In this document: positions 1,838 through 60,268 of the stretch, piece by piece
Position numbering within the stretch: position 1 is the first letter of the stretch
How the letters are laid out: every line of letters starts with the position of its first letter
Origin: Spongilla lacustris
Taxonomy: Eukaryota; Porifera; Demospongiae; Spongillida; Spongillidae
Direction of reading: 5' to 3'
Length of the DNA stretch: 64,000 nt
Assembly (NCBI GenBank): GCA_949361645.1
Contig: OX442416.1
Location: 10,483,869 to 10,547,868, forward strand
The notes under the pieces: model-generated
Told to the model about the DNA's origin: nothing
Seen by the model: only the letters and a program-made list of their open reading frames with translations
Database searches by the model: none
Position numbers and translations under genes: made by a program

Positions 1838-18393
<16,556 letters not shown>

Positions 18394-25335: not shown

Positions 25336-25857
25336 CTTCAATATTGGTGCAGCGTCTGTTGTGCATTCTACATGCACTGCTTCAGAACTTTGCATTCAGT
25401 ACACGAAGTACACTGTACAACACATACTAGGGCCAACTATTACTTTTGCCTGTATTTAGAGGAAGTGGGCTCACACCTCCTCCTGGAAAACACCCTTTTA
25501 AAATGGAAAACTCCAGTTCAGAACTGCTCAAATAATTCATTTATGCCTTCATGGAAGAGTTTTCCATTCATTGCCATATGTACATCTATCATCAGCTGCG
25601 CACTTGCTCATGAAGGTACATGTATATATAAGATGAGCACACATACACAGCTGATAAACAGAACATGTGCTCCACATCACCTGATACATGTATCTATAGC
25701 TGCACATTCACTGCACCTTTTACCATCTTTATTGAACTACATGCTTACATGTACAATACATGTATGTAGGCTATGTCTCCATATTCTGCTGGGAGCATAT
25801 TTTCTGTCTAAATTGTTCTTGTACATATGTATTTCTCCCCTCTTCATTCCTTACCAG

Positions 25858-25983
25858 AACAATGCATCTCCATTGTATATAGCAAGTCAGAACGGACATC
25901 TTGATGTAGTAAAGAAGCTCATTGAAGCTGGAGCCAATGTTAATCAGGCCGATAAGGTTGGTGTGGCATCAGTGCTCAGTTGA
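25858..25983 (+). CDS. Ankyrin-repeat exon (33 codons), possibly terminal
   Basis: Acceptor TTACCAG at 25857, then 33 codons: NASPLYIASQNGHLDVVKKL, IEAGANVNQADK, to 25956. The next bases, GTTGGT, could be a weak donor. Unspliced, translation continues VGVASVLS and stops at 25983. The consensus TPLxxAxxxGHxxVVxxLIxxGAxxN is intact. It belongs either to a separate upstream gene or to a duplicated 3' part; no Death or 2A exon was found upstream. Confidence 0.7.
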   Translation, partial: NNASPLYIASQNGHLDVVKKLIEAGANVNQADKVGVASVLS

Positions 25984-33739: not shown

Positions 33740-33937
33740 ATGGGAGTTGACATACCTATGTACAGGGCAAGGATCGGGACGTTTTTTAGCCGTAGAAACG
33801 TTACTCGTGGTGATAAGACCGTCAACTTGAAGCGAAGATGGAGAAGAAAAGAGGATGTCTGCAAAGTATCCGATAGAGGTTGTTACCAGGACCGTGACAA
33901 CGGCGCTGATACTAAAGTGCAATCGAGATCAAATGAG
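33740..33937 (+). CDS. Candidate leader exon of the 2A gene
   Basis: 66 codons from ATG 33740, strongly basic (RRNVTRGDKTVNLKRRWRRK), ending SRSNE at donor GTGCGT. It joins in phase 0 over a 61-bp intron (33938-33998, acceptor CTATGCACAG) to the 2A exon. Alternatively the region is untranslated and translation starts nearer the 2A. Codon evidence is too thin to decide. Confidence 0.45.
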
Positions 33938-36900
33938 GTGCGTGTTCAAATGCACATTTCATCGATTAGTGCATGTATATTATTTTTCCTATGCACAGCA
34001 AACGTATGAACCACATCCACATCTGTATGATGCTCACGTGTACGCGGCTGGACAGTTTCTACCGGTGTTATTGGTGATGTCAATAATGTCTGTAAGGCAG
34101 CTATTGATATTGTCTGGCGACGTCGAAATGAACCCCGGACCTTTAGGTCAGCATGGCGAAGGTATTGCCGCTCATTAAATTGTATCCTACCAACATGCAT
34201 GTTGAGAAACGTGCAATATGAAATCTGACGATGGTGGTGTCTTTCGCTTCAGATCCCACCTGCACGCTTAAAAATGTGCTGAATGCTTTAAAAGATGTGG
34301 TGGAATGGAAGTCACTAGGAGTCCAATTGGATATCAGTGCTCCAAAGATAGATGAGATTGATGTTAATAACAGAGGGCAGGTGGCAGAGTGCAGATATGC
34401 TCTGGTAAAGTTCTGGTTGGAGTCAGATGTATCATGCTCCTGGAAGAAGCTCATTGATGCCCTCAAGGCAATTGGTAACTCAGTATTGGCTGAAGAAATA
34501 AGAACTACCTATTGCCCAATGTGCCAAGGTCAGCCGACTAGAATAACAACATGCCTGCATGAACTATTTGCAGGTTTGCTCATTGGGTCAATAGGGGGAT
34601 GGCAACTCTCCCCTGATTATGATATCACTCTCACCCTAGTGATGAGAGTACAAGTGTGATTACTCTGCACTACCATAGTGGAAACATTTGTTTGAATATA
34701 CATGTACCATAGATTCTAGCTCTATGAATGGTATATTCTATGAATATACCATGTATTGTAGTTGTATACAATCTATGAATATAGAGTATATGTAAAGGTA
34801 GGTCTCTACTATCTATGAATACACCATGTACCAACATATACATATTTCCTTGCTAGGATACTGGAGATGTGTGGTATTTACTTTTGTCCCCTGACCAATA
34901 GGTAAATGAACCCACGCATTTCAATATAATCTTATATATACAGCAAAAAGATAAAATTATCCCCTAGGCCCACACGATACTTTGCGTACCGTAGTTCCCC
35001 AAGAATTAGCAAAATTAAAGCAATTCATTACCATATAGTAATTAGGGGTCCTAAATTTTTTTCACTACTGGAACTTTTATTCCCCCCCAAATAACATTGT
35101 AAATCATGTACAAAACATACTATACCACTAAACGGCATCATTCAATGGAGGGGAGACCGAGCTGAGATGGTTGGAGGCAAATTTCACAAAACGGATGCAG
35201 CATTCCCCGTCTGAATGGCAACTGAAAACTTTTGCATTCATGAGGTATACTAGAGAGCTTTAAATTTGTCATCTGTTTTTGGTACAATTAAAAATCTGAA
35301 TGGTGGCCACGGTGTCCTTGATGATCGTACCAATAATGGCAATATTAAAAATTTTATTTAAATCAAACCTCACAATACACATGTTATAAAAATTCAATAA
35401 CGAGCCGCGAATGAAATTTCTAAGATTTTATAGCCAATGCGAATCACTCGTGTGGTGTGAATGCTGCGCAGGCGTTGAGCCAAATATCTGCCAACACGAA
35501 CTTGTTCCCGCGCTCCTTGTCGGACTGCACTGGAACGCAATTTTATTATAATCACTTGATTGGGTACACTCGCATATTTTAATTATAGGTTACACTAGCG
35601 CTCACGCTCCATATGATGTGCTAGTAACAATGTAATGATGCGACATCCCACAAACTTACCACACATGTTTCTCTTTCATCCATGCTTAAAATTGATATAC
35701 CACTCACTTAAAACAAACGGCTATTGTACACGGTACAAACCCAGCAGGACATAATCAATTTTGTCATGTGCATGTGTAGGGGTGTACGCTTATTTACTAG
35801 ACTAGCCCATTAAAACTATACCCTCATGTGCGGAGGAGGTTGTTGACAGGATAGGAGTCGACGTACAATGTAGCTTGACGTACTTTCCTTTGGACTGGTC
35901 ATGAGTGATAAATACATAAATGCATAAATCCATACTGATGGTTATTAAAAATAATTGGATCAGTACATTGAGCCTTCAAATGGACAAATGGGGCCACCCC
36001 CCCGCCCCCCCCCCCCCCCCCCCGACATTATTCAAGCGCAACTGAAATACATTGAACTCACACCATTTTTCTGTGTGAAAATCGATTTTTATGATCTATA
36101 CCTATTCCGTGCCGTGGATACAACAATCGTTAACCCCGCGGGTTAGAAATCCACATTTTCTTTGTAGTTACAGGCATACATCCTTTAAAGTGAAACAAGG
36201 GCGCTGACAATGTAGCTTTGCAATAACACAATTATAGCTGCATGGCACATGCAACCAATTGTGAGGATATTGCCACATCATGACAACCTTTGATGTGAAT
36301 TTGTAGCTCATGATCTAAATAAGTCTAATTACCTCTATGGCCAAATATGTAGGAATTTTGCAAAGAGACTGGGGGAATACAACAAAGCCCTAATGGTAAG
36401 GCGGCTTGTGGTAATGCCCACAAATATGACCTATATGTCTTCAGCCATTTGACCAGGTATTGAGCTCAGGTTTTAATACATGGTTCCTATACGGGTTTAG
36501 AAATCCTGGTGAGAGATTTTTTTATATATCCATTTCAGTTCCCAACAATTTGCGGGCCAATTAAAAAAAAAAAAGTGCTGTCTTCATCGCATTTACAAGG
36601 TATTTGCACTTTCAATGATAAATGATGTTGAAAGACTGAGTGGCAAGAGAATAATCACAAGGCCATGTGTTTGGTGTGCCAAAGATACTTTGCAATCCTA
36701 ACAAAGGGCAAAGTTGGACTCCATAACATGCACTTAGAATAAAAAAACTATTATCATGATATACATGTATCTAGGTACGTATATGTGTACATGTAGCATT
36801 AGGCTATAAAGATAGGTTCAAGAACCCCACAAAAACGTTGTAAACGTGTACCTCTGCTATCATCTTCTCACTGCACTTTTCTTACCTAGATCTTAGAAAA

Positions 36901-39900
36901 AGGGACGAGCTTTTCAGATATGGGCCTGAACTAGAACTTGAAGTAGCTGTCAAAGTCATTATGTTAAAAAAAAACACACTTACGCATGACAATACATGTA
37001 ATACAGCACCATATATAAATATAATTATATACCATCCAACATGTATAGAGCTTTATCAAAACATTTGCTTCATGACCTGAAACCCCATCTACACTGTACT
37101 GAAACAACAAAAAGGAGCAATGTTTGAACATTTTCTTCTTCTTCTCTTAATTGTTCAGCTGCTGTTAGTAGAACTGCAGCTACTGCATTACATTTTATGG
37201 GGATTCTTTTTCAAGCACTGTTCATTTTATTGCATATATATTTTGCATTTGTATTATACTCTTAATTGATTATTAATTAATTCCAGCAGATAAAGAATCA
37301 CCCCAACAAGTTGTTGAACAGCAACATCCTGTATCATCAAAAGGTGATTTATAGCATCAGACAAAAAGTCACCCTTGCTAGATATAAAAAATGTTATAAA
37401 ATTCCCTTATATTTGAATAGCTATAATGTCCAAATGGCTAAAGCTATCGACATTTTGTTTTCAACACTTCATACTACACCAACTAGAACTTCAAGTATAA
37501 TGTATATGTACATGTAGCTTATATATTTTATAAAGACATAAAACGTTATAAAACCACACTTACACATGACAATACATGTAATACAGCACCATAATATAAA
37601 TATATATATATATACCATCCAACATGTATAGAGCTTTATCAAAACATTTGCTTCATGACCTGAAACCCCATCTACACTGTACTGAAACAACAAAAAGGAG
37701 CAATGTTTGAACATTTTCTTCTTCTTCTCTTAATTGTTCAGCTGCTGTTAGTAGAACTGCAGCTACTGCATTACATTTTATGGGGATTCTTTTTCAAGCA
37801 CTGTTCATTTTATTGCATATATATTTTGCATTTGTATTATACTCTTAATTGATTATTAATTAATTCCAGCAGATAAAGAATCACCCCAACAAGTTGTTGA
37901 ACAGCAACATCCTGTATCATCAAAAGGTGATTTATAGCATCAGACAAAAAGTCACCCTTGCTAGATATAAAAAATGTTATAAAATTCCCTTATATTTGAA
38001 TAGCTATAATGTCCAAATGGCTAAAGCTATCGACATTTTGTTTTCAACACTTCATACTACACCAACTAGAACTTCAAGTATAATGTATATGTACATGTAG
38101 CTTATATATTTTATAAAGACATAAAACGTTATAAAACCACACTTACACATGACAATACATGTAATACAGCACCATAATATAAATATATATATATATACCA
38201 TCCAACATGTATAGAGCTTTATCAAAACATTTGCTTCATGACCTGAAACCCCACTGAACTACTGAAACAACTAAAAGGGGTAATGCTTGAACAGCTTCTA
38301 GATAATTTTGCTTTTTCTCTTGTTCATCGGTTAGTAGAACTGCATCTATACTGTATGCTTTACAAATGATGGGGATTCTTTTTAAAGCTCTGTTCATTGT
38401 AATGAATCGTACATTTGTATCAGACTCTCAAATGATTATTCCAGCAGATAAAGAATTACCCCAACAAGTGGTTGAACAGCAACATCCTGTATCATCAAAT
38501 GGTAACATAGCGTCAGCCATTATACACATTATTTTTAGTAACCAGCTTATGTACAAGTAAATGTAGTCTGCATACTTATTTGTGTACAATTGTATTTATC
38601 TTATATCTTAATTATCCTTCACCATTGCATACACAATAAATGCTGGAAAATCCAGTTCCTTTGTGCATAACTCCCTTTGTTTGTATTTTGACTGTCGGCA
38701 AAAGTATAATTTATACTTGCTTTCTGGAATGCTGTCTTACAATTGACTTTATTTGTATGTTTGCGTGATAAATAGTGTGGTAAATATTAGCCGGAGTACA
38801 CTTTCTTGGTGTCACCATTTCCACAAAAAAATTGTTGAGATTGCTATTGCTGTATGTGCTACACTTTTCAAAGAGCATTAACAAAATGGATCAGATTAAG
38901 TAGCCATTTGTAGTAATAACAAGAATATAATTATGTACACCTCCCTAGAGCACAGCCACTTATTTTACTGCACCTATTGTACCAATGAATCCCCCGTAGC
39001 CCTCCTACTGTACCAATGTATCCACTGATCATGTAACCCTCCTACGTACTGTACCAATGTATCCCCTGATCATGTAGCCCACCTACTGTACCAGTGTATC
39101 CTCTGATCATGTAGCTGACAATGGATATGCTAATCATAAGTTAGAGAGAGAGAGGGCTGCAATCAATATCTGCATGGATAATGCTTAATGATCAGGAACA
39201 ACAGTGGGTGGGTTACATACATTGGTACAGTAGGTGGGCTATATGATCAGGGGATACATTTGTACGGTAGGTGGGCTACATGATCAGGGGATACATTTGT
39301 ATACTAGGTACATTTGTACTACAACTCTGTTTTCTTTAGGCGGGGGTGGGGGCGTCGGCAGGACCCTAGGCCCGCCCAGCTCTGAGTCGTGAATGAAAAT
39401 AAATTCATCCACACTTAAAAATGACAAGTTGTCGTTGGAACCAGGGGGATCTTACCAGAACCCTCCAAGTGACTTACATGTGTGGTTAATTAGTGTTACT
39501 AAATGAATCTCAGATTTTTCACTGTAAAGTAAAATTCGTGTATTGTTTAGCAGCTAAGTCATGCTTAGGTCACAGCCCATATTGCCAATTGATTTGCTGA
39601 GTAGTTAGGAACCAGTTTCAGTCGCTATCCATGCAGGCTTCAGTGCTTTTTTATGATGGTGATGCTGATGTTCGTGTGGGTATTTAAAAATATAAAGTTG
39701 TTTCTGGGCGATATCGTTTTCAAAAGTATGTTTAAATAACGCGGTTCCCCCAGACTCAATTGCTTTCACATTTGTGATTATAGCTATTAGACCTCCCCCC
39801 CCCCTCCCCGCTTCCTGAAATGTTGGATCTGCCCCTGCGCACTTATTCCCTCTGTTTTATTTACCACTTTGTAGTGCATAAGTGAGTTATTGTATTTTAT

Positions 39901-42900
39901 TCTAGGTTTTTATTTATGTGAATGTCCTGTCCTTTTGGGCTATGAACCATTAGCAGTTTTATTATTTTTTTCTACCTGGTTTTGATGCTGTCAATATTCG
40001 ATGTTAATAATAAAACACAATTGTTTGTTAGTTATTATTCATCTGCTTATGATGCAATATTTAATGAAGCATTGCACATGGAAGTTTACTCTTTAAAAAA
40101 ACAATGCAAATCTAAGTGTAGGATGATTGTTTATCCTTTGGTGACCACCAGATTACCCACCCATGCCAACCCCCATTTTCCTTGAATCCAGTGCCACATG
40201 ATTCCTTGTTGTTATTTGTAGTATTGCAAGTTTGTGGCCGGGATGCATATGTATTGACTGCAATGTAAGAATATAAAAATATGTTCCTGGTGATTGTAAT
40301 AAACATATACTCTACTGTTTTATACTTTAAGCAATCAAATTGTATACTCTGAAGTAGTTGCCTAAATGCCAGTTGGGATTGAAAGACATATTTGTGGTGA
40401 ATAAAATTGAACAATATGGAAGCTGATGATTGCAATGGTGATTTAATGTTGTCCAGAAATAAATTCACTTATATTATCTAAACTTTCAGAAAAACGTCAT
40501 ATAATGGATAACTGTGGCTGTGGAAGATGCGATTTAAAAGGACTCATAACTAATGGATGTCATAATCCACGTAATAAACCATTCTTGTACCTTGATGTTG
40601 ATAGTCTTACTAAGAATGAAAAAGACATTTTACTGCTAAAAGTTAAGGCTGATGCAGATGCCATAAATAAAAAATATCGTCAAATGATCCTTAAATTTAA
40701 AACCTGGATGGAGGTCAATGTACCTGTTAAGAATTACAGGGATATCCTGTTTAATATACCGGGTACTATCAAAAATGAAGTGCCTATGCTTCAAGACAGA
40801 TGGAAGGACATCAAAGAAGCTGATCACTCAGAATGTTATGCAATACTCTCCGACTATTTTACATGGTTTAATTCTTCTGTTTTGAAAATAGTACTAGAAG
40901 ATGCTAAAACTGTAACTGAAAAAGATCCAACAGACATTTTATCAATCATACAGTCCTATACAGACGAGGTGCACAAGTACTGCAAACGAAACATCTTTGA
41001 ATGTCCCCCACCTTCACCTATGTCACTCATAAAGGACGCTACTTACTTTTTATTAAAAGTGGTAGAGTATCAGGAACTTGATAAAAAAACATACAAAGCA
41101 GAAGAAATTCAACTGTTTGAAGCACAATTGATGGCATCTTTAAATATTCAAAACTATGCACTAAGGTTGTGCACTGTTACCAGGGGATGTGTTGAGCTGG
41201 TGTATTCTGTACCACTCTGCATATACTCTGTACTATTTCCTTTGAATGAAGAACAGTGGAAACTTCTTATCACACTAGGTGTAACAGAGCTCATGACAAA
41301 GGACTACCACTATAAGCAGGTAAGCAAACATTTTTCTTCAGTACATAAGTTGGGTTTCCAACTCTTTTTGGAGCACAGTATAATTTATAATACACACAAT
41401 GTGTACAATGTATGTGGGTTTCGATATGGTTGTTTTTATTTTCTGTACTGTACAGTCATGCAGTAAATAGTTTCATCTGCCTGTACATGTAGTTATAGAA
41501 ATCTGCGTACATGATACATGTATGTCTCCAAGAGAATCCTTATCCTATCTAAAGGCTTTCTATTGCTGTGCAATGCAGGGAAATAGTTATTGGTGCCTTT
41601 AAATGAAGATTGTGATTCACTTCCGCATCTTATGATGCTACTGTTACAGTCTTCAGAATTGGATAAAGAAGTGTTACATCCAACAGCTGCAGATGAAACT
41701 GCTGCAGGGAGACAACTTCCTATGGATGTGGACATGACTGCTCAAAATAAGGTTAGGTGCTGTTATAGTACAAAAAATTATTTTTAGATGGGCAGAATAG
41801 TGTACAATGCTCAATCTCCCTATGCTCAATTGCATGTCTGTCATATGCATGAGCACCCCCAAAAAATTCCCCTAAGTAATTTACTCACACAACTGCATGC
41901 TTGTATGCGTCCTAGCACACACGCCCCTAAGCACACAACATTCAAAAGATATACAAAGTATCACACATGCAGCATACAATATATATTAGATCCTTTTAAT
42001 TCTACCACATGGAGGTTAATTACCTTATTCATTTCAATCTCAAACAACTTGAAGTAGATTTAATTTAGTGCTTTATTATTCCACAAAGGCAGTGCTTACT
42101 TTAGATTTATTTGATGTATACAGATTGTAGCTCTTTCAAAAATCCAACAAAATGCATTGCAAATTTTTATAGAAACTATAAATGGTAGTTATCATACATT
42201 TGTCTATAGAGTACAGGAAATTATATGCTGTGTGTTCATTCCTTACCTGCAGGACAATACAACTCCATTGTATGTAGCAAGTCGGGAAGATCATCATGCA
42301 GGTGTTGATGTGAATACAGCAAGATCTGATGTAAGCAATGATATTTTTATTTTATGATATCAATGCAATGTCTTCTACACTGCCATACATAGATGTGTAT
42401 ACATGTATATTGATGTGCATTTGATGTGCATGCAGATTGATGCATGTATTATATGAGGTACATGTAATTGTGCTAGTTATATTGTTCATTTTCCCAACTA
42501 GATTAAAAAGGTGAAATATGATTTGTGACAAAAGTTATGTTTTTTATGCTTTATTATAAAGCTTTGCTTCAAAAGGTGACATAGGATTTGTGATATATGT
42601 AAGCCAGGTATTGATGTTAATATACATGCATGTATACATCTGATGTACAAGTAAGTGATCGTATAATGTCTATGAGGCATGATGGAACTAGAAATCAATT
42701 GCAACGGATACACAGATGTACAGTGCATGTACATATACTACATGTAGATGCATGTAGCTACAAATCAAATGAATATGGGTAAAAGTTCAGTAAAACTCGT
42801 TTATCATATTCATTTGAGATGCATGCAAGTGAAGAGGTAAATGTTTGTGGACTATGCTATTTATGTTGTTTTAAATATGTGAAAGTAACACTATATGGGA

Positions 42901-43377: not shown

Positions 43378-46300
43378 ACCCCTCTCACCGGCCCTGCACC
43401 GGGTTTATAACTTGCTGTAGGAATAATCGCTTCAATTTCGGTTTGTATAGGTAGAGAGGTCCTATACCTATCGATTTGTTCTGTTTGTTCAGTTTTATGC
43501 TATCCGTTACGGAGATACATGTACCAGTACAGTTGAACAAACTACGTGCACATTTCCCCGCTTGATTAGCGCCAATGTTATAATCCCCGCCTCCCCATAC
43601 ATCGAGTGGCCCATTGGCGCGAATCGAGCGCGAAAATGTGCACGTAGTTCGTTCAACCAAGGACACTTAATTAAATGTCCTTGGTTCAACTGTATCTCCG
43701 TAACGGATGACGTAAACATTAACAAACAGTCTCTACCTGCAAAACGAAATTGAAGCGAATTCATTACTCCTACAGAAACGTATGGCGGGTTTGAACCCGG
43801 TGGGGTATTGAACGTTGCAAGACTGGCACGGAACCGTTCAGAAGTTATAATGATTCAATCGCGAAGCAATTGTGTAACATTATTATATATACATATAATT
43901 ATAATTATAATCATAATAAATATAATTATACCCCATAATATATGTACAATACAGATAAACAAGCCCATAACGTTACATTACCTACCACCTAGACTAAATA
44001 ATATATCAGTAGCCTGTGTCTGAGATGGCCCTTGAAAGAAGAGCCCTCACATTTGCCCTAACAAGGGTCATGTTCAACCTCTGATATAGGGCTGTGACAG
44101 ATGCAGACTTTGGGCAGTTCTGACGTGTGGCCAAGCCAGAGGCTAGCTGCGATAGTGCCCACTTTGCTTCAGTGCCCCAACACCCATAGGTCTCTACAGC
44201 TATTGGGATGCATACCCAACCCAGTTCTGCACATTTGGAGTCATTGGCCTTATGCTTTCTCTCCTCTGCTGCAAAGGCTGCAGACCCTGCTGTCACACTC
44301 GCTTCAGGTAAATTACTTGAGGTTAGTGGTGATGTGACAGTAAAGTCAAATGCAGCAGGCTTTCCCATCATCCAGTTTGCTGCCAGGACATCAGCTGGTC
44401 GTGTGTAGCGCTCCTCAGATGTAAAGCCATACCCAACCTCCACCTGAGCACTTATGCAGGCTCTCCTACATGACTCTGCAAATACATCCCGGAGCCTGTT
44501 GTGACGAATGACCACATCGCCCCCATGCTTGCATGTTAAAGCATGATGGCCTAAAGGGTCCAAAGAATGAGCTGGACAGTGAGGACATGTGACACCCTGA
44601 GAGCCTGAGATACTAACACCAAGCCACCATTGTATGGCTGCTTGGAACTCAGAAGGCTCCAACTGCAGATTGATACCAGGAGAAGGAGCTGTGGAAAGCC
44701 ATGCAGCAGCATGGGGAGATGAAACTGATAAAAGGCGAGCTCTGTCAGGCAATGATGATTTTGAAAAAGCTGTGCAAACAGGCTGTCTTCCAATTTGTTC
44801 GAAAGCACCTTTTGGCGGCATGGTGTCTCCCTGATAGCTTCCAATGTAACCGTATCCTCATTAGAAACATGTTCATTAAACTTATCGATGGCATTCAACA
44901 GGTGCTGATTGGTCTCAGAGCACATGCCAGCCATGCTTAGAGATGCAATATAACAGGCAGATGAATGTTCTGAAAGCCGACGAAGCCCTAAACCACCTCT
45001 GCTAAGGCTGAGTTGTGCCTGTTTCCAAGCACTGTTTGGGGTGTCTACAGCTGTGGCTAGAGCAAAGCAGTGACGAACATCATTATCAAAGTACTCCAGT
45101 CCTTTGGCAATGAGAGAAGGGGGTGTTGATCTTGCCAAGTGCACAAGCTTACAAAATCCGCTACACTGTCGTAACAGAAGCAGAGCAACTTGGGGGTCCA
45201 CAGAACCAACCTCTTCCAGTTGGGAGAGTAACTTGGAGGCCGTAGCACACTTCTGGGATACAACTTTGGCACAAAAAATTGCATCCCCAATAGGAGCTCC
45301 CAGGATCTCCAAATGAGGTACACTAGATCTCTTCATTTCTGGTGGGAACATGCTGAGATCACTAAGACTGAAGAGTTTACATTTTGCTGCATTAATAAAC
45401 AGACCCAATGGAGGGCCAAGCTCTTGGATGATGGTAAGTGCACGTGAAACTGCATGCTTAGGACCAGCAACCACACCATCATCTTGGTACCATCAAACTG
45501 GAGCATTTTCATCTGATACAATAGCAGACACAATCTTGTGGAGTACTATAGGCAGAAGAACATTGGACTTAAAGGGTCTCCTTGCTGGACACCCACCTCT
45601 GAGCTTATAGTACCCAATGCATGCTGCAATACTGGGTGTTGGCCATAGCACCATGATGCCCATGGGAGCAACTCTGGGAATTGAATGCTGCACTCATACA
45701 AGAGGGCCTGACGAGACACAAGATTGTATGCATTACGCATGTCTATTTTCAGCACTGTCATCTGTCCAGTGATCATCCATGCAAGACCTGAGACCATGGA
45801 TAACCTTTTCTGCTCCTGCTGCACAAGCCACTCCAAACTGGTAGGGGGCAAAGAAGTCACTGGCTTTGGACTTTTCAACTGCACTAACACATTTTCCCAC
45901 CAGGCGACGTAAAGCTTCACCTACTGCAATGGGGCGAATATCAAGTGGCAAATCCTCTTCACTTTTCACCAGCGCAGTGAGACTACCTCCAGCTAAATGT
46001 TTAGAGACAACCACTGGGACTTCACCAGAAGCTAGTAGGTTGATGATATCCCTAAGAGAAGAGCATATGGGAACCTGCAAATGTATCTCCGCTGCATCTA
46101 TGAGATGTTGAATTCAAAGGCCTGAAGGTCCACATGCAGTAGTCTTTGGGAAAGACCGCAGAATGGCCCCTACATTGAAATCCTTTGGAAGAATAGCTGT
46201 CCATGAACTACCAGCAGTGGGTGGAGTTGGAGGAGGGCCCTTGGGATGTTTAGACTGCAGGAGTTCCCAGGTGTCATTATTGTGAGGTGCTAGACCCGAT

Positions 46301-49300
46301 GAAGTTAGGACTTGACAGGCCCTCCCATACAGTCCTTCTCTGGCTAGAGCAACTGAGGTGTGGATCCTTCTGTCAGTATCATTGTGCCTTGAATGAGAAG
46401 GTCTTGAAGTAGTCTGACCAATAGCACGCTGCCAAAGTGTTCTGTATTGACCTTTCAACCACAAACCACAGAGGTACTCAATGGAAATAGGCTTATGGTG
46501 ACGTCCTCTACGTTTTGGGGTAAGAAGCAAACATTTAGGCAACATGAAAAGCTTTAACCATGAGTCCTCAGTGTTCTCTAACAAAGCTGATCTTAGAGCA
46601 GATGATAGGGCTAATGCAAATGCAGGTCTAGCTTTGGTAGGCACACGTCTTAGAGTGTAACCAGGCAGTTGGCATATGTAGGCAACTCATCAATGCTGGC
46701 AGACATTGGCAAATTCATACCTAACGTTTCCACCACTGCATGTGCAGTGCGTGCGCATTTAGTCCGATGGGATAGGCTGTGGGAATTAGCTACCAGCACC
46801 TGGCAGTCAGGGCAAATAAACAGACCGTGTTCCTTCAGCCAGGTGTCAGGCACATTACCTGGAAGCAACCTCTGGGCATGTAATGTTATGTGGTGTCGCC
46901 ACATTGTGGGAGAAACTAGTTCAGGGCAACCCTCTGAAGGTCCACATGCAGTAGTCTTTGGGAAAGACCGCAGAATGGCCCCTACATTGAAATCCTTTGG
47001 AAGAATAGCTGTCCATGAACTACCAGCAGTGGGTGGAGTTGGAGGAGGGCCCTTGGGATGTTTAGACTGCAGGAGTTCCCAGGTGTCATTATTGTGAGCT
47101 GCTAGACCCGATGAAGTTAGGACTTGACAGGCCTTCCCATACAGTCCTTCTCTGGCTAGAGCAACTGAGATGTGGATCCTTCTGTCAGTATCATTGTGCC
47201 TTGAATGAGAAGGTCTTGAAGTAGTCTGACCAATAGCACGCTGCCAAAGTGTTCCGTATTGACCTTTCAACCACAAACCACAGAGGTACTCAATGGAAAT
47301 AGGCTTATGGTGACGTCCTCTACGTTTTGGGGTAAGAAGCAAATATTTAGGCAACATGAATAGCTTTAACCATGAGTCCTCAGTGTTCTCTAACAAAGCT
47401 GATCTTAGAGCAGCAGATAGGGCACATGCAAATGCAGGTCTAGCTTTGGTAGGCACACGTCTTAGAGTGTAACCAGGCAGTTGGCATATGACTTCAAATG
47501 TAGGCAACACAGACGTCACATCAATGCTGGCAGACATTGGCAAATTCATACTTAATGTTTCCACCACTGCATGTGCAGTTCGTGCGCATTTAGTCCGATG
47601 GGATAGGCTGTGGGAATTAGCTACCAGCACCTGGCAGTCAGGGCAAATAAACAGACCGTGTTCCTTCAGCCAGGTGTCAGGCACATTACCTGGAAGCAAC
47701 CTCTGGGCATGTAATGTCATGTGCATGGTGTCGCCACATTGTGGGAGCAACTAGTTCAGGGCAACCCTCTACAGCACATTGTTTCCTGTTCGAGGTGTAA
47801 GAAAGGGAAGGAGAGGGACAGAATGATGAGGAAAGCGTGGAGGTGGCTGTGTAAGAATAATGTGCCTGTGCAGAAGAAGGCAGGATATATCCTCGGGAGG
47901 GAAGCTCAGGTGGAGGTTGAATGGGGCCTTCCGATGTCGATTGGGAGCACGAATGGTTAGAAGATGGAGAGGACCCCTGTTCCGGTGATATACTAATAGG
48001 TGCAGGGGCTATTGCTAGCAGATGGGTTTGAGCATGCAAATGCTGGATAAATACAGATGGCGGAAGGTCCGTGGATACTATTGGAGGATCAAACAGCGCT
48101 GGCACTGCCGAAGAGGAAGGTGTGAATGAAGTGCTAGGAGAGGGCTGGGGTGATGATGGTGTCCCATGCAAAACCGACGATCGGGATGGCTCAGGAGATG
48201 ACGTATTAAAACGTTCATAAAGGTGGCTCGGAGGGCTGTAGCGAACTACCAACTAACGAACCGCTATTATTGTTATTTGAAAACAAGGACTCACAGCTGT
48301 TGCCATTGGACTTGGATGAATGGCGGCTGTCATTCAAGCAGGACGTGCAACGGGTCCGCTTAATGGTAACAAGGACTAATTTGCAACCCACGCAAGCGGT
48401 GAAACCTGCTTCGTGAAGTAAGTCCGCCGAGATTCCAGGGTCGTTTTTCGAAAAGTGTCCCTGCAGGTGTTTTTTAAAAGCATCCTTCGTCCCTAAAGAA
48501 GAGGAGCAACCAGGTATTAAGAGACATTCAGACCTACCTGCAGAAGCGCTCTGACGATTGTGTTCCAGAGGCTGTGAATCCGATTGTGGGATAGAACTAT
48601 GCGGGAGGCCTCTTGAAACGCGCTTACCACGCGCCATGCAATATTCTTATTTTTATATATATAATATATTTTAATGATATTCATATATAGCCAGAGCCAT
48701 TCTCCGAAGAGTGTAGAACCGTAGTGTCTCTGTGTTTGATTATGTAACAGTGGATTATTTCGTTGTTGTCAGTGTTGTTTAAAAGTTTTTAATGTCTATT
48801 GTCCTGAATGTCCACCCGGGGGTACAATTGGACACCCGGGTGGACAGCAAAAAATGTTTTTGCCGTTCGGTCACGGAATGGACCTGGCTGCATTTAACGG
48901 TACTGACTTACAGAACAAGTCTTTTCAGGATTGGGCCGAGATAAGTAAGGCTTAAGTCCTTTCGGTACTCGTAAAACGACCCGTGCTAGCGGACCTATCC
49001 ATTACGCTCTGACCGATCCGCATGCGAGGAGCGTAATGGATAGGCCCGCTAGTACGGCTCGTTCTACATGTACCAAAAGGATTTAAGCTTTGCTTATCCT
49101 CGGCCCAATCCTTAAAAGACTTATACTATAAGCCAGTATCGTTAAATGCCACTAGGTCCCTTCCATGACCGAACAACAAAAACTTTTTTGCTGTCCACCC
49201 GGGTATACAATGGTGGACATTCAGGACAATAGACATTAACGGTACTGGCTTACGGAACAAGTCTTTTCAGGATCGGGCCGAGATAAGTAAGTCTTAAATC

Positions 49301-55505: not shown

Positions 55506-55659
55506 ATCACTCTTTGGACGTCAATTCTGCAATACGGATGACTTCGTTAACTGTCAGCTATGTTTTTAATTATGGCTACCGTAGCTTATTACTGAGCAGT
55601 CGCCGAAAATTCGCCGTTCTTGAAGAACCACACGGTTAGCTTACTTTAAAGATATTACT

Positions 55660-55950
55660 ATGATAAAAAAGTGTTTTGCGATGTTTGTTTTGATATTTGG
55701 TGTTTGCAAAACAATGGTTGCTCAGCCAAGTGGGCAGGGATTTGAAGCCGTACGTCGTGTATACTATGAAACAGACGACGAAAACACGATGTTTTTGTCC
55801 CTTGGTGTTATTTCTAAGGTCCAGGTTTTTAAAAAAGCTTTTCAATCCCCTATTGTAGGAGAACAAGCGGGTGCTTATTCAAAGCCGCTAGTGACGCCAT
55901 TACACGTACAGCTAGCTGCAGCTGCTAGTTACCGCTTACCTTTCAATTAA
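55660..55950 (+). CDS. Small secreted-type protein encoded in the TTAA transposon
   Basis: 96 residues. Starts MIKKCFAMFVLIFGVCKTMV, a plausible signal peptide with cleavage near MVAQ, then GFEAVRRVYYETDDENTMFL, SLGVISKVQVF and a Gly/Ala-rich end, RLPFN. Copy 1 at 33091 aligns with the same sequence but carries stops and amino-acid changes (E to K, D to H), so selection on the protein is not shown. Not recognised. It may be a captured host fragment or chance frame. Confidence 0.4.
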   Translation: MIKKCFAMFVLIFGVCKTMVAQPSGQGFEAVRRVYYETDDENTMFLSLGVISKVQVFKKAFQSPIVGEQAGAYSKPLVTPLHVQLAAAASYRLPFN

Positions 55951-57700: not shown

Positions 57701-58250
57701 ACATGTAATTTTAATACTGTGATGTATCTCAGCTATGATGTTTAATAATTGAGATGTGATGTAACTGTGTAAATGGAAGGAAAACTAGGATTCAATGTCT
57801 TGCATGGTGCCATGCACACGTGTAAATTTTAAATGTGTATGTTAATGAGCAGCTTGATGCATTTACATGTCAAAAGTACATACATGTGTGACTGTCTGGT
57901 TTACATGTATTGTGTACATTGACTAGCTCACTATGTAAATAATGTGCACCTCTATGTGTGCATAGTACAAGACATGCATGATACTGTCATCAAAATTTTT
58001 AGCAGTTGTACATGTGTACTGACATGCATTTTGATAAGCAACCAGAATAAGGATTTGGTTCCTTACTATGAAGGCTGGTCTTACATACCTATTAGGGAAA
58101 TACATAAATAAGTAGAACAGTTGAAACACAAAAGATATATATATATATACAATAAGTTAATTAATTTGATCAATAGAAGGCTGTGAGTTTGCGTGTAATA
58201 CCTTATACTGATGGAGTGGTATGAACATGCATGGTGGTACTACTACCCAG
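57701..58250. other. Non-coding flank of the retrotransposon
   Basis: Mostly unassigned. The last 70 bp (CAATACCTTATAC-type, GAAGTGGTATGAACRTGCAT) match 61935-61985 in repeat R copy 3, so the retrotransposon inserted into repeat R. 57735-57760 resembles 30715-30750. Confidence 0.55.
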
Positions 58251-60268
58251 AACGCATTTAATCTTGTCTCTCGCCAAGCCATCCTAGATGAGTGTTTGGC
58301 CAACTTTCCTGAGCTTCTGCCTTGGGTAGTGTGGTGCTACTCCCAACACCCTACACTGTGGCATCCATTGGGGGTGCTTCACTCTGCCTCTGGGGTCCAG
58401 CAGGGAGACCCTTTGGGCCCTTTGCTGTTCTCCATAGTTCTGCAATCTATTCTCAAATCTTTTGCTGAGGATGCACTATGCAATTCCTTAGATTTTAACT
58501 GTTGGTACATAGATGATGGTGTTCTTGCAGGGGACACTGCTGCCTTAGTTAAGGCAGTACATCTATTAGATACCTATGGTTCTACTAAGGGTCTGCTACT
58601 GAATCCATCCAAATGCCAGCTGTATGGACCATGTGATCCAACACGTTTTCATTGTTCCATTCCCCATCAGTCGGCACTCAACTTTGACATCCTGGGTGCC
58701 CCCATTGGCGACGACAACTTTTGTGCCTCTTTCATTGAGAAACGACGGTTGTCAGCTTGCGAACTTTTGTCACTGCTTCCAAAGCTTTGTGACCCTCAGC
58801 TGTCTTTAGGTATTCTGAGGCAGTGTGCCAGTTTTTGTAAATTGGCTCACCTGGCCCGGTGCACTCCACCTACTTCTGCCGTGCTGGAATTGCTTGCTAA
58901 TTTTGACAATGACGTGCTCCATTGCCTTGAGCAGTGTACTGAACTACAGCTTACACCAATGGCAAGTCGGCAAGCACAGCTCAGTTTTCGTCATGGAGGT
59001 TTTGGCCTTCACTCCCTATTTTCCCATGCTACAGCTGCCTTCATCGCATCGGCCAGTATTTCTCTCTCAGGAGCTTTTCCACCCACCACCGAATTCACAC
59101 ATTTACAGACTGCTATTGCAATGTTTAATCAGCAGGTCACCGAAGGAGAAGCTTTGACAATGGTTTCAGTCCTCCTTTCACCACCCAGGCAGCATTTACT
59201 ATCAGAGAAAGTCGAGAAGCTTGCATTGAGTAGCCTCTTGCACAATGCTACAACAGCAACTAAAGCCCGACTGTTAGCAGAGTCAGTCCCACAGGCTCAT
59301 GCATGGTTAAGAACAGTGCCATCCCCAGGCCTTGGACTAGCACTTGAACCTGACGAAACCCACATTCTTCTGAAATGGTGGTTGGGCCTTCCCCTCTGTA
59401 ACTTGGAAGAAACATGCCCCTATTGTTCTAGCCAGCTTGACCCCCTGGGACACCATTCTTTAACTTGTCGCTATGCCGGGGATGTGGTGACACGACACAA
59501 CTGTATACGTGATTGTATTGCTGACTTTTGCCGTCGTGCCCACCTTTCTCCTCTTTTGGAGCAAGGTTGTGGTATTGGTCCAGCCAAAGACAGATCACGC
59601 CCAGCTGACATTTTGATACCAAACTGGTCACTGTCTCGATCTGCAGCATTTGACATCAAGGTCAAGGGCGGACGCAGGGGGGGGGGGTCCGGGGGGTCCG
59701 GACCCCCCCCCCCCCCCCCCCCCCTCGAACTTGTATATGAATATAATTTATGTATAATTAGCGTGCTACACGTGTTACACGTAGCGTACATACAATCCCC
59801 CTGTATGTACTAGTAGAATGTGTGGAAAAATAGGAATGCACACCACAAAAATTTTCGCGCGCGCGGAGCGCGCGCCCCTCCTCTCATCAATTATTCATGT
59901 CGGACCCCCCCCTCTCCAAAATCCTGCATCCGCCCCTGAAGGTTATACACCCCCTCAATAATTCATTGATTTCAGATGCTGGTCAGACCTCAGGTGCCTC
60001 AGCTGCAGTGGGTGAACAAGAGAAATTAGAAAACAATGCTTTGGGTTGTCTGGAAAGAGGTTGGATATGTGTCCCTCTCGTAGTGGAGGCATATGGCGGC
60101 TGGGGAATCACTGCAAAAGAAACATTCTCAAGAATTGCTAGGCGTTTGGCCATCCACTCCCACTCATCCAATACTGAAATGCTAAATGCAATATATTGTC
60201 GCCTCGGCACTGTTCTGATGAGGCAAAATGCCCGAGCCCTCCTGGCTCGATCGGCATCATTTTCGTGA
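58251..60268 (+). mobile_element. 5'-truncated RLE-type non-LTR retrotransposon (best-preserved copy)
   Basis: Open from 58251 to 59662, then interrupted by a 276-bp transposon, then continuing 59944-60268. Begins mid-RT at NAFNLVSRQAILDEC. Motifs: GVQQGDPLGPLLF, CWYIDDGVLAG (catalytic YIDD), LGAPIGDDNFC, RQAQLSFRHGGFGLHS, CPYCSSQLDPLGHHSLTCR (CX2CX9HX4C), RHNCIRD, RPADILIPNW, AAFDIKV. PAD...D-I-K is the full PD-(D/E)xK-like endonuclease signature. Apart from the 5' loss and the insertion, no stop interrupts the frame, so it is young. The reading frame on both sides of the insertion is in register when the duplication is counted once. Confidence 0.9.
59663..59938. mobile_element. 276-bp transposon inserted in the retrotransposon, 5-bp duplication
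   Basis: Left CAAGGGCGGACGCAGG, right inverse of CAGGGGCGGATGCAGG. The pentamer AAGGT is duplicated exactly (59658-59662 and 59939-59943). Contains poly-G/poly-C near the left end and a GC palindrome (CGCGCGCGGAGCGCGCG). Same terminal family as 56031-57329. Confidence 0.9.

Follow-up and report, generated by a model that had tools for sequence, protein, structure and literature searches.

Organisation of the locus

The window, by which we mean the whole 64,000-nucleotide stretch of DNA analysed, appears to correspond to ~10.48-10.55 Mb of chromosome 2 of Spongilla lacustris. Direct reading of its forward strand predicts a leader exon 1 at 33740..33937, opening with the ATG at 33740 and comprising 66 codons (MGVDIPMYRARIGTFFSRRN...SNE), with a phase 0 donor (AATGAG/GTGCGTG). 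An intron of 61 bp separates it from the predicted exon 2 (33999..34161, forward strand), which encodes the remainder of the leader, a hydrophobic stretch, a 2A motif and the residues PLGQHGE, and whose phase 1 donor lies after 34161. The hydrophobic stretch FLPVLLVMSIMSVRQLLIL (34056..34112, forward strand; residues 86-104 of the predicted leader) reaches a best 19-residue Kyte-Doolittle mean of 2.09, the means in three 2A copies ranging from 2.09 to 2.26. The core of 2A, or StopGo, sequences is DxExNPGP; here GAC GTC GAA ATG AAC CCC GGA CCT encodes DVEMNPGP at 34119..34142 (forward strand), in frame after FLPVLLVMSIMSVRQLLILSG and inside a 115-codon open stretch in the list of open reading frames of the window, the skip being predicted between Gly and Pro. 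A second intron, of 91 bp, leads to a Death-domain exon of type B (34253..34528, forward strand; acceptor AG at 34251-34252, donor after 34528), which is recognised both by its relatives in the genome and by Pfam (PF00531, E 4.6e-7, 30.3 bits for a cut-off of 22.6). Splicing of 34161 to 34253 (donor GGCGAAG/GTATTG, acceptor gcttcag/ATCCC) would join G to AT and restore an Asp codon. The predicted product consists of a 113-residue leader ending in NPG, a length that depends on the ATG at 33740, followed by PLGQHGED and the Death domain. Reading and Pfam therefore confirm the original prediction of DVEMNPGP in an exon with a phase 1 donor ahead of a Death exon. Position 33740, the start of the range that it gave, is the ATG of a separate leader exon, which is joined to the 2A exon in phase 0.

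Further downstream, an exon at 40501..41319 (forward strand) encodes an unnamed domain of ~270 aa, here called DomX, which has 46 matches in the genome and no Pfam family above the cut-off. This exon probably belongs to the 2A gene of the window, in which no exons were identified between 34528 and 40501. Within 30 kb downstream of the window 2A there is no NACHT, and DomX is found there instead. The ankyrin part that had been attributed to the gene is not supported by Pfam, which detects no such repeat in the downstream exon considered as a candidate; the next exon that recurs is that of DomX. An ankyrin repeat is present upstream of the 2A gene (25627-25980, forward strand, Pfam Ank E 2.9e-8), where it probably sits in another gene, and a run of SRCR-like exons was seen by eye in the list of reading frames at 2019-16319 on the same strand. 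Between the Death and DomX exons, positions 36970-38503 are occupied by tandem units of ~583 bp.

Several features would be in keeping with a decayed or partial window copy in an otherwise real family: the stretch without identified exons ahead of DomX, a comparatively divergent leader (70% identical to the leader exon of locus L026 used as a query), and the duplication of the 5' flank of the 2A gene, whose segment 33031-33339 recurs 22.6 kb away at 55598-55896 with ~90% identity. The genome search with the L026 leader exon matched no leader exon at this second copy of the flank. We nevertheless consider decay of the window copy unlikely, given that the leader, 2A, Death and DomX exons are all open with usable splice sites and that the two nearest copies of the DomX exon share 77-80% identity with it.

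Genome-wide census and pairing with Death-type exons

Over the 248,560,934 bases of the genome searched, the pattern (D/G/N/S)(V/I/M)ExNPGP gave 56 matches, against none for the reversed pattern used as a control and ~2 expected by chance according to a hand estimate with uniform base composition. One match, the C17 motif copy, has no L-rich context and is probably unrelated to the family. A similarity search with a 2A-region query returned 47 rows, 46 of which (window included) have an intact motif, the 47th being a second piece of the window; the query itself contained the motif, so decayed copies could be overlooked by this search. Stop codons occur within the matched stretch in 5 of the 47 rows. 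The original prediction held that few host genes carry a 2A, which fits the literature, but about 55 motif copies are present in S. lacustris alone.

The position of the motifs was compared with a set of 182 Death-type exons, made up of all 88 type-B matches and the 94 stronger of the 130 type-A matches. A Death-type exon lies downstream on the same strand within 1, 2 and 6 kb of 34, 41 and 48 of the 56 motifs, respectively, and within 6 kb none of the 56 has one upstream or on the opposite strand. In the shift control at 6 kb (100 shifts, in 20-kb steps to 1 Mb), the mean was 0.71 and the maximum 4 of 56. Of the eight motifs with no Death exon within 6 kb, three lie at C2 20.8-21.2 Mb and another two at C1 6.2 Mb; in L019, L020 and L039, the three of these that were read with a body, the 2A is followed by an exon that looks GTPase-like by eye (Walker A, DSGGQPEF). 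This remains a by-eye label since no Pfam family was above the cut-off in L019, the single copy scanned, and a GTPase/Roc name was rejected for the L019 exon (best Roc E 0.06). For one further motif copy the Death exon is 12.9 kb away. At L018 (C1:29232776), a leader and a 2A are present, and no Death, NACHT or other receptor exon was recognised downstream; the C17 copy is the eighth of these motifs.

Splice sites, codons and upstream hexapeptides were counted in 31 of the 56 copies, some of them near-identical (L009-L038 and the window, with L039-L044 excluded). A phase 1 GT follows the core in all 31 loci, and a phase 1 join from this donor to a Death acceptor was found in 22, of which 21 restore Asp and one Glu. 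The nine other loci include L018-L021, with no nearby Death exon, L032, with stops in the exon, L014 and L033, where the Death exon is past the searched or fetched stretch, and L024 and L028, whose tag/ACCC acceptor is visible by eye and was missed by the regular expression. Death exons of three types are met behind the 2A exon with the same phase, namely type A, type B as in the window and a further type at L011 and L029, which may reflect a leader-2A module moved by exon shuffling. This module is not universal, since no 2A (among 52 copies) lies within 8 kb upstream of 22 of 53 type-A and 21 of 43 type-B Death matches, counts that cover 53 of the 130 type-A rows and a biased choice of 43 of the 88 type-B rows (the top 40 and three weaker ones near a 2A). 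Broken Death exons with stops were seen at C3:10144761 and C2:11174387.

Leader and receptor bodies

The leader exon preceding the 2A exon often begins with MG(V/I)D..YRARIG, and the start reads MGID.(E/D)(S/T)YRARIG in L022, L024 and L027. The L026 leader exon has 26 matches in the genome; 25 are located 125-286 bp upstream of a 2A and the 26th (L043) precedes a run of N. N-myristoylation of MGVD was considered and dropped, its pattern not fitting the window copy.

For the receptor bodies, 78 of 80 NACHT matches and 41 of 46 DomX matches were assigned by distance, before the next 2A. NACHT was found within 30 kb downstream of 24 of the 56 motifs (shift mean 1.42, maximum 6, 98 shifts) and DomX within 35 kb downstream of 12 of the 56, the window gene included (shift mean 0.12, maximum 2, 98 shifts), with the reservation that, at distances of up to 30 kb for NACHT and 32 kb for DomX, some may belong to a neighbouring gene.

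Homologues in Ephydatia muelleri and origin of the 2A exon

With the joined L013 model as a query, ten proteins were retrieved, four named Ephydatia muelleri and six bearing eukprot 'Em' names. NPGP is present in nine of these ten E. muelleri proteins, and eight of the nine have the MGVD leader; P0003 begins just before the 2A, and P0004 is without it. The gene model of P0001 (795 aa) reads MGVDLATYRARIGTF...LLLLLSGDVETNPGPLGQHTEDPTFTFKN, then Death and NACHT. Pfam finds Death and NACHT in P0001, P0003 and P0008, with LRR in addition in P0003. At the level of gene models, leader, 2A, Death and NACHT thus appear to be joined in E. muelleri as predicted. The 2A region alone, compared with public proteins, gave five proteins out of 15 candidates, all five from E. 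muelleri. NPGP occurs in 9 of the 121 proteins listed, again all E. muelleri, one contributing search having 120 of its 357 matches listed; many of the remaining proteins of these 357 matches are short reading frames around the NACHT part and are uninformative on the 2A. Two E. muelleri models, P0007 and P0068, run by eye from NLR-type into reverse-transcriptase-like sequence, which would be either an annotation artefact or a fusion.

It could be argued that the 2A exon derives from a transposable element or a virus and lies near a Death exon by chance, as 2A is known mainly from viruses and non-LTR retrotransposons in the relevant parts of PMC12846837 and PMC11512398. Reverse-transcriptase fragments were indeed seen by eye in the window at about 44-48 kb and 58-60 kb, as frames at 44006-48646 on the reverse strand, part of which (46122-47233) is duplicated, and at 58212-60268 on the forward strand. 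However, the reverse-transcriptase-like frames listed for the window contain no NPGP, so that a reverse-transcriptase-linked 2A frame is not what is found here, the 2A exon precedes a same-strand Death-type exon in 48 of 56 cases with a conserved splice phase, and the E. muelleri models join the 2A to receptor parts. When viral contigs were scanned once with the 2A exon of L013, no relative was confirmed. A transposon or viral origin is therefore largely refuted, and we regard it as extremely improbable. The original prediction had named a 2A exon within a transposon transcript as its own refutation; this was tested and is not the case. That a host gene family has a 2A exon before its Death exon is supported by the pairing, by the 22 phase joins in 31 loci and by the E. 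muelleri models. In animal or protist genomes, the 2A of non-LTR retrotransposons is found near an N-terminus; the sponge gene differs from these elements in having no reverse transcriptase and in having Death, NACHT or DomX downstream.

Conservation of the core motif

The seven fixed residues of the core are invariant in the 31 loci, and the third base of each codon is variable in at least one copy. The x residue of the core (p15) is M, L, V, E, Q or K, and the upstream hexapeptide is L-rich and ends in (S/A)G in all 31 loci, reading LLILSG in the window. Both the StopGo core (D/G/C/N)(V/I)ExNPGP and a suitable upstream context are thus present. The protein sequence of the core, leader and exon 2 is under selection, with pN/pS values of 0.175 for the eight core codons (31 loci), 0.43 for the leader (17 of the 31 loci; ten, L029-L038, contain little upstream sequence) and 0.35-0.43 for exon 2.

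This constraint bears on the alternative that the 2A is a relic or inefficient, with the product being mainly a one-piece protein with a hydrophobic membrane anchor, or with the 2A exon bypassed by other starts or splicing. The NIEMNPGP or NVEMNPGP found in some E. muelleri copies (P0002, P0005 and P0006) would agree with such a relic, as would the alternative phase 1 donor after 34146 in exon 2 of the window. Yet N at the first core position falls within the extended functional motif in the relevant part of PMC12846837, use of the donor at 34146 retains NPGP, and the core has stayed invariant despite codon change and has a low pN/pS. A relic or inefficient 2A is, in our estimation, decidedly unlikely.

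Discussion

We consider it likely that the window includes the 5' portion of a receptor gene of the host, one of about 55 with a 2A in the N-terminal region, mostly before a Death domain, and that the product of this gene is made as a skipped polyprotein. Transcription in S. lacustris, skipping and membrane routing are what we infer, and the Death, NACHT and LRR architecture suggests an immune function for the sponge 2A receptors. We propose that translation would begin at the ATG at 33740, that the nascent LLILSGDVEMNPG would work within the ribosome exit tunnel, and that the Gly-Pro bond would be skipped, with release of the 113-residue leader, whose hydrophobic C-terminal part may make it tail-anchor-like. 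The ribosome would then resume with Pro-Leu-Gly-Gln-His-Gly-Glu-Asp and translate the Death domain and the remainder of the receptor, which would be left cytosolic. In an unskipped minority, the membrane-type segment would stay fused to the receptor and direct it to membranes, so that the efficiency of the skip would split the receptor between two sites. Because of the long leader ahead of the sponge 2A, the membrane segment of the fused form would be internal. A secretory routing of the fused product like that in sea urchin, as originally suggested, is less certain, since the hydrophobic stretch comes after ~85 leader residues and is not N-terminal.

A broader hypothesis can be put forward more tentatively, as a possibility to which we give slightly less than even weight. 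Freshwater sponges may produce much of their repertoire of intracellular receptors in the form of StopGo polyproteins, a single leader-2A exon pair having been shuffled before at least three Death types and several bodies (NACHT, DomX and GTPase-like). Each mRNA would give a tail-anchored leader of ~110 residues and a Pro-initiated cytosolic receptor, failure of the skip would give a membrane-bound receptor, and the likeness to sea urchin would reflect repeated recruitment or inheritance from early animals. The occurrence of the urchin pairing in a very distant phylum, on about 55 motif copies of one genome, would imply either that StopGo was recruited repeatedly to the immune receptors of animals or that it has been retained since early in their history, and it makes this question of recruitment versus retention testable. 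That the leader is conserved hints at a separate function for the released piece, and the many sponge 2A copies constitute natural variants for the study of skip efficiency.

StopGo is described in the relevant part of PMC12846837 as widespread among RNA viruses but seldom found in cellular genes. Among the viral L-rich contexts ending in (A/S/C)G, with D at p12 and S at p15, all four representatives assayed, motif 6 included, supported StopGo according to the same part of that paper. The sponge sequences resemble viral motifs 2 and 6, as presented there, in the L-rich hexapeptide ending in (A/S/C)G before D at p12 and in the DVExNPGP core. The viral sequences lie in polyproteins and usually have Ser at p15, whereas those of the sponge lie in host genes and have M, L, V, E, Q or K, a difference which may count against the proposed skipped polyprotein.

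In demosponges, E. muelleri being among the genomes used, expanded Death-NACHT-LRR genes have been reported (PMC12909245, relevant part), an expansion to which the 2A family bears a likeness; the main text of that report has no occurrence of 2A-like, NPGP, signal peptide or ribosom-. In the open-licence literature, we found no report of sponge genes with a 2A; the term '2A-like' occurs in a paper on sponges from 2018 (PMC5890393). The sea-urchin NLRs are the single cellular immune 2A case that we found in that literature. As given in the relevant part of PMC4981915 (2016), about 35% of the sea-urchin NLR paralogues, 85 of 241, carry a 2A, SpNLR2A6 skips at ~80% in vitro, and a non-skipping mutant sends the fused reporter to the Golgi. 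By analogy with the urchin, the sponge gene would give mostly a separate, Pro-starting cytosolic receptor.

Common to the sponge and urchin genes are a 2A near the N-terminus in many paralogues of a Death-NACHT receptor family and an L-rich stretch ahead of the 2A that could act as a membrane-targeting signal. A Death-NACHT body after the 2A is seen at the level of the sponge family and not in the window gene. In the sea-urchin NLRs, the 2A forms the first 26 residues, whereas that of the window follows a conserved leader of ~110 residues and is not within the first ~26. A possible short form, MATQLIS(V/L)LLLMAGDIEENPGP before a Death exon, was observed at L041 (C10:8724616) and L042 (C5:265160), and is nearer to the 26-residue urchin form than is the window gene. 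The sponge family further differs from that of the urchin in its phylum, Porifera, in the several Death types involved and in the presence of the 2A also before non-NACHT receptors, the window gene included. The closest precedent is that of the sea-urchin NLR 2As described in 2016, to which the present work adds the sponges, several receptor architectures and, upstream of the 2A, a leader that is conserved.
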